Shown in pieces: positions 38,477 through 46,421 of a DNA stretch of 64,000 nt (its first letter is position 1; each line of letters opens with the position of its first letter). Position numbers and translations under genes: made by a program. The DNA lies in assembly GCF_002494345.1 (NCBI RefSeq), contig NZ_NXNI01000002.1:124001-188000 (forward strand). The letters run 5' to 3'. The notes below the pieces were generated by a model, which ran no database searches, had not been told where the DNA came from, and saw nothing but the letters and a program-made list of their open reading frames with translations. This DNA comes from Natrinema ejinorense (GTDB lineage Archaea > Halobacteriota > Halobacteria > Halobacteriales > Natrialbaceae).

Positions 38477-38960
38477 CCCCGACTTTCTGTAACAGACATC
38501 TCTCTTCCTGTTCCACCCGTAACAGACGGCCATCCTTCTGTCATGTCTGTATCTGTCCTCTGTCACGTCTGTACTTGTCCTCTGTCATGTCTGTATCTGT
38601 CCTCTGTCACGTCTGTACTTGTCCTCTGTCACGTCTGTACTTGTCCTCTGTTATGTCTGTAATGTACTTCTGTCATTGACGACTGTTACAGCGAGGTGGC
38701 GGTTCAGGCTGTCCGTATCCGACGTCTGTTCTCGCCGCTTCTGTGTCATACGTCTGCCATAGATATCTGTCACAGACACCTGTAATAGACTTCTGTGATG
38801 TATATCCGATGATTTTGAAACACTAGTATAGACCAACTAGGACTCTCATATATGTCCTAATCGACATCATATATTCTATAGCTGACATCCTCTGTTACAG
38901 ACGTCTGTTACAGGCGTATTGTACAGATATGTAATACGAACATCTGGCTGTATCGTCTGA
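38477..38960. repeat. repeat-rich putative centromere (parS-like) before parA
   Basis: The 480-base AT-richer stretch has five full 22-base tandem units (38537-38646; alternate TCTGTCATGTCTGTATCTGTCC and TCTGTCACGTCTGTACTTGTCC). It also has TCTGTNACAGA palindromes at 38486-38496, 38767-38777 and 38891-38901, and a further near-copy at 38904-38914. It ends about 40 bases before parA, the usual place for a partition site or operator. The function is inferred from position and symmetry. Confidence 0.75.
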
Positions 38961-38998
38961 CATAGATTTATGTTCCATCGCCCACAACGCTGAGTTAC

Positions 38999-39994
38999 AT
39001 GATAACGGCCGTAGTTTACTCCGAATCAGGTGGGACGTACAAGACCACGATGACGGCCAATCTCGCGGTCGCACTGGAACGAATGGGCCAGAACACGCTC
39101 GTGTTGGATCTCGATCCACAGGAGGGCAACCTGACCAGCCTCTTCGATGCCGGCGAACACCGGAGCGATCCGGATGCGGACAACCTCGTCAAGCATATCC
39201 TCGATATGCCGGATGGCAATTTCGACGACCTGATCGAATCGACGGCCGAAGGCGTCGATATCGTCCCGAGCCACGATATGCTCGGGGATTTCACCTCGAA
39301 TCTCGAGCAGAAGATCTCCTACGAAACCGGCATGAAAAACATCAGCCGGGACGAATATCCCCGATTCGAACTCCTGTATGATCTCCTCTGGGAGGAACAG
39401 GAACTCCACGAGGAGTACGATGCCGTTCTTATCGACCCAAACGCACGCGCCGAGGATCTCCTCTACAATGCGATCTTCGCGCTGCGTACGCTCGTCGCCC
39501 CCGTTAAACCGGCCGGCAAAGGGAACCTGAGCTTGGACGGCCTCGAGGAACTCGTCGGGAACATGGAGCGCCAACTGGATATCGAGATCGGGCTCTCCTG
39601 TGTCGTCCCCTCGGGCGTCGGTCAGACCAACGCACATCAACAATACCAGCGACAGTTCGAAAACACGGCTGCGTTTGCAACGCCAGTCACGATCGGCAAT
39701 CGGGAAAGTCTGATGGACGCGATGTGGGAAGCCAGGGGATCCGCGTTCAAGGTCGTCGAGGAGCGATGGAAGACGTTCGAAAAAGAGGGAACCATGGTGA
39801 GCGAACCCGGCCGACGGCGAGTCCGCGAGAGGGAAATCGAGACGCTACGAAACCTGTACGAACTCGCCCGGTTCATCGCGACCGAAACGTTCGACGCCGA
39901 CGTCGACCCCGTGTTGGAACTCGATGTTCGAGATAAGGAGACTCGAATAATCGATCTCCGACCGGACGAGCCAACTGAGGTGACGACCGCGTGA
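38999..39994 (+). CDS. parA: ParA family partition ATPase
   Basis: The 331-residue protein has a deviant Walker A, YSESGGTYKTTMTANLAVAL, then DLDPQEGNLTSLF (A'), YDAVLIDPNARAEDLLYNAIF (Walker B region) and a helical C-terminal half. In the normal KGGVGKTT the first Lys is the signature Lys; here it is Ser, although the second Lys and Thr-Thr are intact. It should bind ATP and DNA and move the plasmid. It is followed by a helper gene in a GTGA overlap and preceded by the repeat array. It is the standard haloarchaeal plasmid ParA type. Confidence 0.92.
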   Translation: MITAVVYSESGGTYKTTMTANLAVALERMGQNTLVLDLDPQEGNLTSLFDAGEHRSDPDADNLVKHILDMPDGNFDDLIESTAEGVDIVPSHDMLGDFTSNLEQKISYETGMKNISRDEYPRFELLYDLLWEEQELHEEYDAVLIDPNARAEDLLYNAIFALRTLVAPVKPAGKGNLSLDGLEELVGNMERQLDIEIGLSCVVPSGVGQTNAHQQYQRQFENTAAFATPVTIGNRESLMDAMWEARGSAFKVVEERWKTFEKEGTMVSEPGRRRVREREIETLRNLYELARFIATETFDADVDPVLELDVRDKETRIIDLRPDEPTEVTTA

Positions 39995-40479
39995 CCAATT
40001 TCAAATCCGGCTCCGGTAACCTCGATTTCGGGGGTGACGAGGATCCCGAACCGGACTCGTCCGACTCCGAGGACGAAACCGGTACCGGAACCCGGCCCGA
40101 TCCCGACCCCTCCTCGACGGAGGCCGCTTCCTCACCCCCCGAGACGTCACCGAACAGTACAGACGGGACGTCCGACCGACCGCAGTCGAACCGGGTCACG
40201 ACGGAGAAGCCGAGAGCCTCCGACACCCCGACGAACGAGTATCCGTACTTCGTCCGGCGGAGTAACGTCGGAGACGAGCGGGATACCCGTCTCGAGATTC
40301 ACGTCCGAGACAAGGTCGCCGATCGGGAAGCCGAGTTTCGGAGCGAGCTCGCGGCACACCTCGATGCAAACGAAATCGCAAAAACGGATGCACGAGAGTT
40401 CGCTCTTCTCGCGGCGTTTCAACACCCCGAGCGTGTTGCCGAACTGATGAGCAACGAGGGGTTCGGGGCGCTCGACTGA
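39991..40479 (+). CDS. putative ParA partner with disordered N-terminus
   Basis: The 162-residue protein starts with GTG overlapping the parA stop. Residues 1-80 are low-complexity (Asp/Glu/Ser/Pro/Thr/Gly). Residues 85-162 are a folded helical part (TRLEIHVRDKVADREAEFRSELAAHLDANEIAKTDAREFALLAAFQHPERVAEL). It lacks a ParB HTH. By place and form it is the DNA-binding or adaptor partner of this ParA, possibly with the 22-base repeats as its site. No family name was found. Confidence 0.7.
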   Translation: MTNFKSGSGNLDFGGDEDPEPDSSDSEDETGTGTRPDPDPSSTEAASSPPETSPNSTDGTSDRPQSNRVTTEKPRASDTPTNEYPYFVRRSNVGDERDTRLEIHVRDKVADREAEFRSELAAHLDANEIAKTDAREFALLAAFQHPERVAELMSNEGFGALD

Positions 40480-40718
40480 CACTGGAGCTGTCCGTTTTCC
40501 GTTTCATCGGTGGCTGCGTACTGCGACCCGGGTTTCGTGGCCCTCGGGGACGGGAGGTGAACACAACCTCGGAGGACGGAAACGATGCGGGCCTTCTATT
40601 CATCGACGGCTACGGAGAAATGAGACACTGTGGTTTCTTCTGGGAGCCAATAATCTGCTCGATCAGTTATAAAAAGAGCGAAGACTGACAATTTCTCCTA
40701 ACTAGCGGGATTCCTCGT

Positions 40719-41438
40719 TCAGATGAGTTCCTTTGCAAAGCGGGTCGCAAGCCATGCTTCGGCGCGAGCAAGGCGGTACTGCACCGTCGACTGTGGGAGC
40801 CCCAGTTCGTCGGCCAGTTCCTGGGTCGTAATCTCTCGGGGGGTCTCGTAGTACCCACGGGCGACCGCCTCCTTGATCAGCTCCCGTTGTTCGTACGGCA
40901 CGTCGGCGAGAGAGACGACATCATCGCCCCAGTGGGTCGGATCGGACAGGTGATCCAGCGTCAGACGGAGGCCGTCCCGTAGTTCGGTCTGAATCGCATC
41001 GTACAGTTCGCCCACATTGGCGTCGTCGGGCATCAGAATTCGCCACGTATACTGGTCGCCCTGCCGTTTCGTATCGTAAAGCAGTCCCTCGCCGATGTGC
41101 GTGGCTGCGAGATGGGGGATCGAGTGGCAGTCGTCGGCCTCAGTCCCGTATGCGTAAACGGTTCGCGAGGTGGTCCCCCGTGAGAGGACCTCGTACTCCC
41201 AGCTGGTCTGACAGTGTTCAGCGTCGAGGCACTCGTTACAGTGGGCCGGGTCCAGAAACACCCCATCTAGTGCCTGTAGCGCGTCTTCTGGGCCCGTAAT
41301 ACGGTCGAGATGCCAGATGCTATCCGAGGTGACAGTACAGGTCAGCGACTTCGACATCACATCGGGATGGTCGATGAAGATGTCGGCGATTGGATCCGCA
41401 CCGCGGTCGTAGGTGACCGTGAACACGAATTCGCGCAC
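40719..41438 (-). CDS. Bat-type helix-turn-helix regulator
   Basis: The 239-residue protein has an N-terminal sensing part with the pair CNECLDAEHCQTSWEY, a possible metal or redox site. It ends with the HTH_10 domain of bacterio-opsin activator (Bat) regulators, YEQRELIKEAVARGYYETPREITTQELADELGLPQSTVQYRLARAEAWL. Bat-type regulators are common in haloarchaea. The gene is divergent from the MFS gene at 41614 and likely controls it. The start is at 41438. Confidence 0.9.
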   Translation of the reverse strand: MREFVFTVTYDRGADPIADIFIDHPDVMSKSLTCTVTSDSIWHLDRITGPEDALQALDGVFLDPAHCNECLDAEHCQTSWEYEVLSRGTTSRTVYAYGTEADDCHSIPHLAATHIGEGLLYDTKRQGDQYTWRILMPDDANVGELYDAIQTELRDGLRLTLDHLSDPTHWGDDVVSLADVPYEQRELIKEAVARGYYETPREITTQELADELGLPQSTVQYRLARAEAWLATRFAKELI

Positions 41439-41613
41439 ACGCTTAATTGGTACTAACCAAGTTATTTAGATTGCGACTTCTGGTCGGTTAGTTCATGGAG
41501 AAAAAACACGCTGTAACCGAATACACGTCTGAGTGACACCGACAAATTTTGCCATTCTTGGTTGATACCAAATCAGATTCTAATGCCACTCTCATCTTCA
41601 GGTCGGATGTACG

Positions 41614-42894
41614 ATGCAATTCGGAACAATCAGACGTGACGACTCGACGTTCCTCGGCCCCTACGTGGTCGGCGTGACTTTCCTCGCGTTAATGGGCGCG
41701 TTCGGGCTGAATCTGAGTGCGGGACAGTTCTTCGAACCACTGACCGGAGCCTATGGATGGGAGTTGTCGCTGTTGAGCCTAGCTGTCTCTGTGAACATGA
41801 TTACCTGGGGGCTGTTCCAGCCGGTGATGGGCCGGCTGATCGACTGGATCGGCCCCAAGCTGGTCATCGCCGGCAGCGCGGCGCTGATGGGCGTCGCTTT
41901 CCTCCTGTCGGCCACGATTACCACCGTCTGGGAGTTTTTCCTGTACTACGGCGTGCTCACGGCGGTCGGCTTCGCGGGTTGTAGCTCGATGGCGAATTCG
42001 GTCCTCGTCTCGAAGTGGTACGTCCGGGACCGCTCGGAGATGCTCGGCAAGAGCTCGATGGGCATCAACATCGGGCAACTGGTGATCCTCCCGCTGGCGG
42101 GTTTCCTGATCGCTATCGCTGGCTTTCAGGAAGCCTTCATGGGGCTCGGTCTGTTCATGCTCGTGGTCGTCGTGCCGGCGGTCCTGCTCGTCGTCGAGAA
42201 CGATCCCACCGATATCGGCCAGCATCCGGATGGGATCGCGGACGAAACGACCGACGCACGGTCGGTACTGGCTGTTTCGTCCGCGAACGTACCGTTCAAG
42301 AAGGCGCTCCGTGATCGGAACTTCTGGCTCGCCAGCCTGAGCTTCTGCTCGTGTGGCTTCACCCTGTATCTCGTGACGATTCACCTACCCAACTACGCGA
42401 CCGACCTCGGCGGTGGCGTTGCGCTCGGCGGGCAGCTGCTCGGGGTTGCCGCTGGCGCGAGTGCCGTCTCAATGTGGGTGACTGGTAAGTTCACCGAGCG
42501 GGTCGGCAAGCGTCGGATGCTCGCTGCCCTCCACGTGCTTCGGGGGATCTCGCTCGCTTGGCTCGCCGTTTCGACGAGTATCTGGCAGCTGTACGTGTTC
42601 GCAGTCGTGTACGGTGTCGCCTCCTTCCCGGTAATCCCGACTGTGACCGGCATCATCGGTGATCACTTCGGGACGAACGCTATGGGCGGGATCCTCGGGA
42701 TGTCGTGGCTCCTTCACCAGATCTTCGCCGCGACGGGCGTGTTCCTCGGGGGGTTCATCCGCGATACGACTGGGAGTTACGAACTTGCGTTCTGGGGCGG
42801 TGCCGCGCTCCTGCTCGGCGGTGCGTTCCTGTCGATCCTGATCGAGAGCCAACCACGTGTCTCCCAACCGGCGGCCAGCGCGGCCGACGATTGA
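41614..42894 (+). CDS. MFS carboxylate transporter (OFA-like)
   Basis: The 426-residue protein has 12 membrane helices. Its start LGPYVVGVTFLALMGAFGLNLSAGQFFEPLTGAYGW and GRLIDWIGPKLVI (helix 2-3 loop) match the oxalate/formate antiporter or monocarboxylate branch. A substrate such as a small organic acid is likely. It has a divergent Bat-type regulator. Its TGA overlaps the TTG of the glyA fragment. Confidence 0.9.
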   Translation: MQFGTIRRDDSTFLGPYVVGVTFLALMGAFGLNLSAGQFFEPLTGAYGWELSLLSLAVSVNMITWGLFQPVMGRLIDWIGPKLVIAGSAALMGVAFLLSATITTVWEFFLYYGVLTAVGFAGCSSMANSVLVSKWYVRDRSEMLGKSSMGINIGQLVILPLAGFLIAIAGFQEAFMGLGLFMLVVVVPAVLLVVENDPTDIGQHPDGIADETTDARSVLAVSSANVPFKKALRDRNFWLASLSFCSCGFTLYLVTIHLPNYATDLGGGVALGGQLLGVAAGASAVSMWVTGKFTERVGKRRMLAALHVLRGISLAWLAVSTSIWQLYVFAVVYGVASFPVIPTVTGIIGDHFGTNAMGGILGMSWLLHQIFAATGVFLGGFIRDTTGSYELAFWGGAALLLGGAFLSILIESQPRVSQPAASAADD

Positions 42895-43013
42895 ACACGA
42901 CGCGCTTTGATCAGTTCCGTGAATCGGATCCTGATCTCGCAGTCGCACTCGGAGAGGAAGTGACCCGCTCGCAGGAGATGCTCACCCTCATCGCCAGCGA
43001 GAAACCTGATTAA
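42891..43013 (+). pseudogene. glyA: N-terminal fragment of serine hydroxymethyltransferase
   Basis: After the MFS stop, the frame reads RFDQFRESDPDLAVALGEEV, then RSQEMLTLIASEKPD and a TAA. The N-terminus of GlyA has this pattern (a Glu-rich first helix, then x-L-x-x-IASEN). Only about 40 codons remain, and the frame stops where the family continues. It is a leftover from a gene boundary, so the MFS gene and its regulator may once have lain beside a complete glyA. Confidence 0.7.
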
Positions 43014-43547
43014 CCGGCTAAGTCCTCGCTGAGTCCGCTACCCGGGAGTAGCAACACCATTCAGCAGTGCTAGAATTCGCGAGATCTCTCACACTCTCCC
43101 GACAGGGACGTCCGCGAGCGCTCGGAATCGACTTTCGAGCGGTGAAAGAACCACGAGTCAACGCAGATTCGACCCACAACTAGGCTCTCCTCCGAAACTG
43201 TGGAGGTGAAAGCAACTCGCAATCAATATAGCGAAATAGGATTCAGAATCGGCTCCAGGCGTACCAGGTTCTCGGCCGGAGCCCTCCCTCCGGAGGCGTC
43301 CGTCGAGGACACGTCGTCACCTGGTCGGCCCCGACCGTGCGGCCGTCGATACTTCGACCAGTCGTCCCGCAGTTCCGTACCTCTGTTACAGATACCTGTT
43401 ACAGATATCTGCCACAGATATTTGGCTAGCGGTCGACTCCCAACGCGACGCTGCCGATCTATCGGTATCCGGACAACGAGTCGGAGATCCATGAGCTCTG
43501 AGCCGTGGCGTCTCCCCAAGTGCAGCCGCGAGTGGCTCTCGTCCCTC
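43014..43547. other. spacer with a second cluster of the TCTGTNACAGA motif
   Basis: Most of this 530-base gap shows no gene. At 43382-43420 three palindromes lie close together: TCTGTTACAGA, CTGTTACAG and TCTGCCACAGA. These match the motif in the array before parA (38486-38914). The gap lies just past the 3' end of the SMC-like gene. Confidence 0.7.
43382..43424. repeat. second TCTGTNACAGA palindrome cluster
   Basis: Three half-overlapping palindromes of the partition-type motif are packed in 43 bases. The spacing of about 13 bases between centres suits binding on alternate faces of the helix. Confidence 0.75.
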
Positions 43548-45506
43548 TCAAATCGTCGTAATGACGTCGTGGTTCCCCTCGAGCGCCTGTGCGTCTTCGT
43601 CCAGCAACGCGACGACGAGGTAGGGTGCGGAGGATTCGAAGTACTCGACGAGTGCAGCGATCCGTTCGGCGTCGATCGCCTCTAACGAGTCGAGCAACAT
43701 GAACGGAACCGTCTCGTACACGTCGTGGACGAGATATCCCGCCAACGCAAACACGAGCCCGATCACCTCACGTTCGCTCTCACTCAAGTGGTCGATCGAG
43801 TCCTCGTACGCCGCACCGTCGTCGGTGCTCCGCACGATCTTGAGATCGAACGAGGACTTGGTGACGGTTCGGCGACCGTCGCGGACTTCGCGGGTCGTTC
43901 GATCGATCCAGATGCGATCGAGGTTGTCGTACTCCAGTCTCTCGAGGAGATTGGCCATGTGTTCGTTGAACGCCTCGACCGCGTCCGCCTCGATCTGATC
44001 GATCTGGGTTCGAAGGCTCGTGAGTTCGTCGGTGACGTCCTCGCGACGCGTTTCGAGTTCCGTGCGCGTTTCGAGACGGGTCTCGATCGATTCGATCTCG
44101 TCTTCGACCTCGTCGCGTTCGTTTTCCGTGCGTTCGAGTTCGAACTCGAGTTGATTGACTTCCTTGTGTTTGTCGAGGACGTCGCCGTACTCTTCGGTCT
44201 CCAGTTCCTCGATTTCAGCTTCGAGCGATTCGATCTGATCGGTCAACTCCTCCCGTTCGGTCGTCAGCTCCTCGATCCGAGTGGTTCGCCGCTCGATCTC
44301 GTCGTCGATCGAGTCGAGTCGGCGCGTCGTCCGCTCGTACTCGCTTCGGTTCTCGTTGATTTCGGAGAGCAGTTCCCGTCGCTCGGAGAGTTCGGAACTC
44401 ACCTCGGTCCGTGCCTCGAGTCGCTCCTGTCGCGTCGTCCGAAGCTGCTCGATGGTCGTCTCGATCTGCTCGTGAGCCACCGACGAACCACAGGTCCAGC
44501 AGGTGACCGTCTCCGAATCCGCCAGCAGCTGGTCGGTGACGGCGCCATCGTCACCCTGGTCCGTGGTCGGCAACACCGACCCCGATTCTTCGAGGAGTTG
44601 CTCGTTGAACTGGATCGTACTCTGGAGCTGGGAGATCTCCTCGGTGAGCTCGTCCTTTTCCTCCTGGAGCATCTCGATCTCTGCTTCGATCCGATCGATG
44701 TCCGCGTCGTCGTCGGTCGACAGCGAGTCGAGACGCTCTTGGACCTCTTCTCGCTCCGTCTCGAGGGCCTCGATACTCTCACGTTCGGTTTCGACCTTGT
44801 CACGCACGCGTTCGAGGTCGGCTCGCGTCCCGCGTAGGTCCCCTAACTTCGTCTCGAGTTCGGATTGTTCCTCGCGGCGCTCTTCGACGTCGACGTTCGT
44901 CTCCTCGAGTTCCGCCTGGGCCTCCTCGAGTTCTTCCTGCAGCGTCTCGATCTCGTTCGTCAGCTGGGTTCGCTTTTGTTCGAGCGAGGGCAATCGCTGT
45001 TCGAGGTCGTCCAGTTCCGAGAGCTGTTCGTCGAGGTCTCGCTTCTGTCGTTCGTACTGTTTGATCTCGGCCTGAATCGCGTCCGTGTCGACGGGCCGCA
45101 TGATCAACTCCTGGAGGTCGTCCCCGCGGGCGACGGCCTGTCGAGCCTCGTTCGTCTCGAGCAAAAACGCGAACAAATCGGCGATCTCCGGGTCGTCGAG
45201 GTACGGGTCGCCATCGGTCTTGACCGTCGCGTTTCGACGCGTAAGCGTCCGGTGATACGTCTCGTCGCCGAACTCGAGGACGGAACGCCCTTCCTCGGCG
45301 TCGGCTTTCAGACTCACGTGATCGCTTCCGAGCGCTGCCATTATTCCCTGTAACAGCGAGGTCCGGTTGGTCGCGTTCCGCCCGGAGAGAACGGTTACAC
45401 CGTCGCTGAGGGAAACCTCCGTCTCGTCGATACCGCCGATGTTTTCGACCGAGAGCGACACTTCCGACGGCCGATTTCGGTTCTCTGCGTCCAAGCTACT
45501 TTCCAT
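43548..45506 (-). CDS. archaea-specific SMC-related protein
   Basis: The 652-residue protein has an N-terminal ATPase head with the variant Walker A SGRNATNRTSLLQGIMAAL. Long coiled coils (about residues 160-330 and 350-550) flank a CxxC hinge (VTCWTCGSSVAHEQI). The C-terminal head has LSESEREVIGLVFALAGYLV and Walker B VPFMLLDSLEAIDAERIA. The layout is Rad50-like, with a zinc-hook-type CxxC. The GxNATNRT loop lacks the usual Gly-Lys-Ser order, as is normal in this haloarchaeal group. Such Sph-type genes occur with rdfA and affect cell shape. It follows rdfA by 84 bases on the same strand. Confidence 0.9.
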   Translation of the reverse strand: MESSLDAENRNRPSEVSLSVENIGGIDETEVSLSDGVTVLSGRNATNRTSLLQGIMAALGSDHVSLKADAEEGRSVLEFGDETYHRTLTRRNATVKTDGDPYLDDPEIADLFAFLLETNEARQAVARGDDLQELIMRPVDTDAIQAEIKQYERQKRDLDEQLSELDDLEQRLPSLEQKRTQLTNEIETLQEELEEAQAELEETNVDVEERREEQSELETKLGDLRGTRADLERVRDKVETERESIEALETEREEVQERLDSLSTDDDADIDRIEAEIEMLQEEKDELTEEISQLQSTIQFNEQLLEESGSVLPTTDQGDDGAVTDQLLADSETVTCWTCGSSVAHEQIETTIEQLRTTRQERLEARTEVSSELSERRELLSEINENRSEYERTTRRLDSIDDEIERRTTRIEELTTEREELTDQIESLEAEIEELETEEYGDVLDKHKEVNQLEFELERTENERDEVEDEIESIETRLETRTELETRREDVTDELTSLRTQIDQIEADAVEAFNEHMANLLERLEYDNLDRIWIDRTTREVRDGRRTVTKSSFDLKIVRSTDDGAAYEDSIDHLSESEREVIGLVFALAGYLVHDVYETVPFMLLDSLEAIDAERIAALVEYFESSAPYLVVALLDEDAQALEGNHDVITTI

Positions 45507-45590: not shown

Positions 45591-46235
45591 TTATCTTCTC
45601 TCGCTATCACTATCGCAATTGCAGGACCCGTTGTCGAGAAGTTCCCGGACGGTATACTCCTGAAAGCACTCTTCGCAGGTCACGGTCGCGGAGACGACGA
45701 CGTTGAAACCGCCGATGTCGATGATGTCGTTGTTGTCAAGTCGTTCGATCGTATCCGTCGTCACGGCCGCCGTTCGGTTCTGGAGCGCACCGAGTTTTTC
45801 CCCGCTTTGCTCGAGCCGTTCTTCGTCGCTCGGCGAGTCGAGCGACGCATCGAGACAGTCCGTCAAATGGTTATAGACTGTCTGATGGGAGACGAAGTCG
45901 GATTTGACTTGGTCGACGGCGACACCGTCGCGTTCGAGTTCGTTCTCGGTCTCTACTTGGACGCCGCTGCTCACATCGTCGTCGGTGAGCAACCGATAGG
46001 TGTTTTCGATCTCTCCCTCTTTAAATGAAATATCTGCTTGCTTAAGCGCTGCCTCGAGTATCCGTTGGTTGACAACTGTTGCAAGGGCACGAGTACTGTA
46101 CTGTTCGTCCGCATCGCCGGTCCAGTACGCGACGAGGTCGTCGTCGAGCCGATCCAGTTCGTATTGGTCCGCCATTCGTCCGATCTTACACCCACACGTC
46201 GAACTGGAAGTCGCTACGTCGTTTCGGTTGGCCAT
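45591..46235 (-). CDS. rdfA: rod-determining factor RdfA
   Basis: The 214-residue protein starts with TCGCKIGRMADQYELDRLDDDLVAYWTGD, the start expected of RdfA. A helical middle part follows, and it ends with a short Cys-rich zinc knuckle (CEECFQEYTVRELLDNGSCNC). In Haloferax RdfA is needed for the rod cell form and acts with an SMC-like protein. The gene leads an operon with that SMC-like gene. The ATG at 46235 was chosen as it puts the Cys-rich start near the N-terminus. Here it lies on a likely plasmid. Confidence 0.85.
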   Translation of the reverse strand: MANRNDVATSSSTCGCKIGRMADQYELDRLDDDLVAYWTGDADEQYSTRALATVVNQRILEAALKQADISFKEGEIENTYRLLTDDDVSSGVQVETENELERDGVAVDQVKSDFVSHQTVYNHLTDCLDASLDSPSDEERLEQSGEKLGALQNRTAAVTTDTIERLDNNDIIDIGGFNVVVSATVTCEECFQEYTVRELLDNGSCNCDSDSERR

Positions 46236-46421
46236 ATTCAACCTCCGGCCCCTTGGCCCAAAGGTGTTTCGCATGCCGATATATTTACATGAGTACCAGT
46301 GTAAGACGTTGCGCCGTTCGGTAGCTGCCGGCCCGCGTTCCGCCGTACGGAGACGGTCCCGCCTCCCGTGACGCGGTGGTCGTGCGACGAGGTTTCCGCC
46401 GAACCTAACGACCGACTCGGC

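Follow-up and report, generated by a model that had tools for sequence, protein, structure and literature searches.

What is the function of the short palindromes that precede the parA gene on a plasmid of the haloarchaeon Natrinema ejinorense, and why does a second cluster of the same palindromes lie beyond a nearby SMC-like gene? We addressed this question in a window of 64,000 nucleotides (contig NZ_NXNI01000002.1, C2:124001-188000), which belongs to a plasmid of 415,920 bases in a genome of 4,476,324 bases. A previous reading of the DNA without database searches, here called the sequence-only reading, had seen in the palindromes a candidate centromere in two parts and suggested that ParA, its partner protein and the SMC-like protein were once united in a single DNA-organising locus. 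Our comparison with relatives points to a narrower system, in which the palindromes are probably a parS-like centromere and the promoter operator of a plasmid partition system formed by ParA and its partner, with the second cluster, or satellite, as an extra site.

Exact copies of TCTGTNACAGA occur in the window at 38486, 38766, 38891 and 43382, compared with 0.02 copies predicted by dinucleotide shuffles; three of them stand before parA and one past the SMC-like gene. When one mismatch was permitted, further copies appeared at 38904, 43395 and 43408, and the 4 + 3 arrangement described in the sequence-only reading therefore holds at one mismatch but not for exact copies, which divide as 3 + 1. 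A whole-genome count, named beforehand as a possible refutation of that reading, found the motif to be rare and confined to this region, as every one of the four exact copies in the entire genome lies in the window. With four exact copies in 4.48 Mb, a genome-wide element was ruled out. A profile search extended the upstream group to copies in 13-bp register at 38740, 38753, 38766, 38779 and 38792, some of them weaker, and found further groups in this register at 38891, 38904 and 38917, at 38956, and at 43382, 43395 and 43408. The region upstream of parA contains the following features:

38486..38966, no strand assigned: main palindrome array and candidate centromere, upstream of parA, with the consensus 13-mer TCTGTnACAGAyr, conserved at 45/45 parA orthologues
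38537..38676, + strand: 22-bp tandem array of about 6.4 copies of TCTGTCAYGTCTGTAYYTGTCC, inside the main array
38956..38972, + strand: promoter-proximal palindrome TCTGACATAGA with a TATA-like box (TTTATG directly 3'), a probable autoregulatory operator

Strong copies in the main array are found at 38486, 38753, 38766, 38779, 38891, 38904 and 38956, besides degenerate ones. The 22-base tandem units of the sequence-only reading form a real array, but not one of five units as had been counted, and each unit is composed of TCTGT half-sites in direct repeat.

We found 45 parA orthologues in many haloarchaeal genera, with ParA proteins 72-89% identical, and the palindrome is present upstream of parA at every one of these loci, a recurrence that the sequence-only reading had proposed looking for. 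At up to one mismatch, 195 sites fall within 52.8 kb of upstream DNA, against 2 for the reversed motif used as a control, and the flanking DNA of the same loci contains 27 sites in 679 kb. Because site-to-site distances of up to 130 bp are mostly multiples of 13 (117/185, where about 14 would be expected), the true repeat unit is the 13-mer TCTGTnACAGAyr, arranged head to tail. Profile pairs phased at 13 bp number 150 upstream versus 1 in reversed sequence, a count that is partly by construction since the profile was derived from those upstream sites; the flank counts, 9 pairs in 748 kb versus 0 in reversed sequence, are unaffected by this.

The doubled motif was recovered in 11/11 genomes carrying an orthologous parA, and a control motif in 0. 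Seven ParA loci of other subfamilies have no comparable palindrome array. On complete plasmids, the doubled motif is present in 13/14 and stands solely beside copies of parA. What looked like an exception in Halalkalicoccus FCH27 is a second copy of parA and partner with its own doubled motif, and another in Haloterrigena KLK7 is an isolated palindrome cluster preceding a truncated parA. Because the doubled motif on complete plasmids occurs only beside parA copies, it marks the parA-partner module. The candidate centromere that the sequence-only reading placed at parA is thus supported by the conserved array, its register and its confinement to parA. Palindrome clusters of two to four copies were also seen in the draft genomes G012 and G046 (L090 9536, L091 9552, L092 9470), on contigs separate from the parA contig. 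The haloarchaeal par locus described here further occurs, with a ParA of 85% identity, on a contig binned as Candidatus Nealsonbacteria (L105), likely a binning error.

The array is followed by two overlapping genes:

38999..39994, + strand: ParA-family ATPase of 331 amino acids (AAA_31 1.1e-17, CbiA 9.6e-14; orthologue alignment)
39991..40479, + strand: partner protein of 162 amino acids, proposed to bind the palindromes (ParB-like), with a 4-base overlap with parA

ParA matches Soj, ParF and MinD in the PDB, which places it among the ParA/MinD-family ATPases. The partner gene follows just 3' of parA in 44/45 loci, and in almost every relative the two genes overlap by 1 or 4 bases, which indicates a single operon; together with the repeated cis site at this operon, the arrangement would fit a ParABS system in the wide sense. 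The partner begins with a conserved KxGxGxLxF motif, continues in a variable linker rich in acidic residues and ends in a conserved C-terminal domain, in which R89, R90, R97, R100, E102, R106, K131 and R135 are invariant. The AlphaFold monomer has three helices and a disordered linker; the C-terminal domain is helical, with high confidence over the second half of this domain. Residues 100-106 alternate between hydrophobic and invariant polar positions, like the strand of a ribbon-helix-helix protein, an alternation that would suit the DNA-contacting strand of such a dimer, with R100, E102 and R106 predicted to face the DNA, whereas the AlphaFold monomers contain only helices. In fold searches with the partner, most of the best matches were chains of histone H2B, at Z of about 3 and E above 2, which we read as chance; ParB-C of pNOB8 has a CenpA-like fold, but the histone matches were given no weight. 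RefSeq names the partner gene 'acyl-CoA dehydrogenase' (39991-40479; L144, L148, L150-L158), a name unsupported by sequence or family searches.

In an alignment of relatives, the palindrome abuts the TATA-like box of parA in 36/45 promoters, which suggests that the parA-partner operon is autorepressed through the promoter-proximal copy. The same observation would fit a plain transcriptional operator, with the partner or another regulator repressing parA and the partition site lying elsewhere. The arrays, however, reach 500-1000 bp upstream of parA with many phased copies, and satellites occur between converging genes, neither of which an operator alone would need, so that we regard this explanation as highly improbable. 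A replication element with iterons bound by an initiator would account for repeats that are both direct and inverted and for their position in a stretch richer in AT (47% GC versus 59%), and orc1/cdc6 adjoins some par loci. Against this, orc1/cdc6 is about 10 kb away in the window, and the repeats track parA, including its truncated and duplicated copies, rather than orc1/cdc6; we consider a replication element extremely unlikely.

The satellite and the genes that separate it from the partner gene are as follows:

43382..43418, no strand assigned: satellite cluster and second candidate partner-binding site, in which converging genes enclose three palindromes exactly 13 bp apart
40719..41438, - strand: HTH_10 (HVO_2928_N) regulator, part of a presumed inserted block, absent from the par loci of 45 relatives
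41614..42894, + strand: major facilitator superfamily (MFS) transporter, rare in the class and likewise assigned to the presumed inserted block
43004..43203, no strand assigned: remnant of a transposase gene, its DNA 70-74% identical to transposases of haloarchaeal plasmids

In four relatives (L057, L109, L122 and L125) a satellite directly follows the partner gene, and in L104 and L126 one lies elsewhere at the locus. In the window, L109 and L122 the satellites are positioned between converging genes and hence are unlikely to be promoters. A relic of a second parA as the source of the window satellite was ruled out, as no parA or partner fragment is found nearby in the window.

The sequence-only reading had postulated that a regulator-transporter insertion split the locus, and this is supported in outline. 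Neither the HTH_10 nor the MFS gene is found at the par locus of any of the 45 relatives, the transposase remnant separates the satellite from the MFS gene, and satellites directly follow the partner in the four relatives named above. Natrinema salinisoli has the order parA-partner-ASRP-RdfA-IclR, oriented as in the window and lacking the block (ASRP and RdfA being the SMC-like protein and its neighbour, described below). In the simplest history, insertion of the block probably displaced the satellite from the partner gene, an order of events that we infer from these comparisons; the satellite would once have stood directly behind the partner gene and have been shifted by 2.9 kb. The MFS transporter has no match in any other of the 145 sampled genomes of the class (E 1e-100), and its DNA is in part 69% identical to MFS genes of Rhodococcus plasmids, which suggests a foreign origin. 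A serine hydroxymethyltransferase-like N-terminus noticed by eye after the MFS stop (42894-43013) had no Pfam or relevant PDB support and was not used.

The SMC-like gene, 130 bp beyond whose stop the satellite lies, and its neighbour are:

43548..45506, - strand: archaea-specific SMC-related protein (ASRP/Sph type; NF045487, 699 bits), neighbour of the par system
45591..46274, - strand: RdfA (rod-determining factor A) family protein (PF21811, 1.2e-71, 241 bits), the usual ASRP neighbour

The ASRP score exceeds the NCBIfam cut-off of 300 bits. In Haloferax volcanii, Sph3 and RdfA are required for rod shape, and most members of the two families are adjacent (PMC10869688). The same N. ejinorense genome has a second ASRP/RdfA pair on its chromosome, to which the plasmid paralogues are 53% and 42% identical.

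Under the shared-locus model of the sequence-only reading, ParA, its partner and the SMC-like protein would use the palindrome jointly as a centromere in two parts, and the SMC-like protein would be loaded at the satellite. Besides the closeness of satellite and gene, this model draws support from the convergent arrangement of parA-partner and ASRP-RdfA, which recurs in N. salinisoli, and from the known loading of bacterial condensin at ParB-parS (PMC12284271). In addition, on 5/12 plasmids ASRP/RdfA is no more than 8 kb from a ParA gene, whatever its subfamily, versus 1.1 expected (P about 0.002), a proximity that is suggestive only, given that the 12 plasmids are those with the closest ASRPs, that the 8-kb radius was picked after the data had been seen and that related plasmids are not independent. 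The palindromes themselves do not follow the pair: none are found around the chromosomal ASRP/RdfA (L049), around ASRP near parA on other plasmids (L055, L058) or in the N. salinisoli gap. ASRP lies within 10 kb of only 4/45 parA loci, where the motif remains at parA, and the characterised relatives Sph3 and RdfA function in cell shape (PMC10869688). A link of the SMC-like protein to the locus through the palindrome is thus not supported, and we consider the shared centromere very unlikely. The motif as a mark of ASRP/RdfA was likewise ruled out by its absence from the chromosomal pair and from other plasmid pairs.

It is plausible that SMC-like/RdfA pairs are loosely associated with regions for plasmid maintenance. 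Plasmid ASRP/RdfA pairs are often found a few kb from a ParA of various subfamilies or from orc1/cdc6 (L194, L195, L196, L197, L147, L192). At two loci rdfA is altered beside a full-length ASRP: it is split into two annotated frames in Natrinema halophilum (L146 8944-9589), and only rdfA fragments match in Haloterrigena KLK7 (L192 9634-9950).

Returning to the partition system proposed for ParA and its partner, we suggest the following working model as the most likely. Each 11-bp palindrome would be recognised by the conserved C-terminal domain of a partner dimer, and dimers stacked side by side at 13-bp steps would build up the partition complex. The N-terminal KxGxGxLxF motif, held on the flexible acidic linker, would contact ParA and thereby let the plasmid follow ParA on the nucleoid. 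Occupation of the TATA-abutting palindrome would at the same time repress parA and the partner gene, and the satellite at 43382-43418 would offer an additional loading site for the partner. The array would thus act as the centromere in segregation, with the partner as its binder.

Several observations weigh against this model. The partner matches no family in Pfam, NCBIfam, PHROGs or the PDB sequences, and hence no recognised DNA-binding family, and fold searches with its model gave no significant structural match. The Walker A motif of ParA (residues 9-16, ESGGTYKTT) has serine in place of the signature lysine; 42/42 readable orthologues carry ESGG[T][Y/F]KT and not the deviant Walker A KGGxxK[ST], so that this ParA may depart from the standard nucleotide cycle of such ATPases. 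The other haloarchaeal ParA loci that we checked likewise have EAGG or ESGG, with the signature lysine mostly replaced by alanine. A complete plasmid of Halococcus dombrowskii shows no paired motif at up to three mismatches, and the gap between partner and ASRP in N. salinisoli contains neither satellite nor palindromes, which shows that the system does not always include a satellite downstream.

We also considered a more far-reaching version, in which haloarchaeal plasmids would have a partition machine of their own class, with a ParA that lacks the signature lysine and a centromere-binding protein of a new kind seated on palindromes at 13-bp steps. On some Natrialbaceae plasmids, the SMC-like protein and RdfA would be recruited to the same DNA via the satellite, so that segregation would be linked with cell-shape factors. 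As a joint proposal, we judge this unlikely.

The appearance of archaeal plasmid and chromosome centromeres has been listed as an open question in a review of the field (PMC5120986), and archaeal chromosomes essentially lack ParABS with a true ParB (PMC12704722). The present locus offers a specific candidate DNA site together with an uncharacterised protein, both conserved across haloarchaeal genera. The system is also present in the model organism Halobacterium salinarum, on plasmid PHS3 and on pNRC-type plasmids; on PHS3 (L159, 65056-72039; partner protein WP_010904098), the par locus directly adjoins the gas vesicle gene cluster. The palindrome site and the partner could serve as stabilising parts for haloarchaeal vectors. 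In the literature searched, outside of which most subscription journals lie, we found no description of haloarchaeal plasmid centromeres or of this system.

Among known partition systems, those of bacterial type Ib, such as TP228 ParFGH, have a small partner gene after parA and an upstream repeat centromere that doubles as the operator. Gene order and upstream repeats are alike here, while ParA lacks the signature lysine and the repeats differ in sequence and spacing. In pB171 par2, two parC sites flank parAB. The second cluster behind the operon in L057, L109, L122 and L125 is comparable, except that satellites exist in only some relatives and that the one in the window is displaced.

SegAB of Sulfolobales and some Euryarchaeota resembles the present system in its ParA-type ATPase with an overlapping small partner, in its palindromic sites upstream of the operon with one near the promoter, and in a partner that combines a variable part with a DNA-binding domain (PMC12284271, PMC5120986), DNA binding being proposed for the partner described here. 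Unlike our plasmid sites, which are confined to the par locus and lie 13 bp apart, SegAB is chromosomal and has sites across the chromosome. The 13-bp SegB site TCTAGASTCTAGA (PMC12284271) also differs from TCTGTnACAGA, and a PDB search with a profile built from 39 partners, taken up to E 5, returned no SegB chain. Nor does the partner have a Pfam or NCBIfam ParB match that would indicate the N-terminal CTPase and HTH (helix-turn-helix) domains of ParB. The archaeal plasmid pNOB8 with AspA-ParB-ParA shares an upstream palindrome as candidate centromere and side-by-side dimers (PMC5120986), the latter being proposed in our case. It differs in having three proteins, a 23-bp palindrome and a winged helix-turn-helix AspA, whereas our locus has two genes and many copies of an 11-bp palindrome. 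The Sph3/RdfA cell-shape locus of Haloferax volcanii (PMC10869688) is of the same kind as the ASRP-RdfA pair of the window, which is plasmid-borne. Taken together, these comparisons suggest that, with a partner that by sequence is neither SegB nor ParB, the Natrinema system would work in the manner of SegAB and the type Ib plasmid systems.

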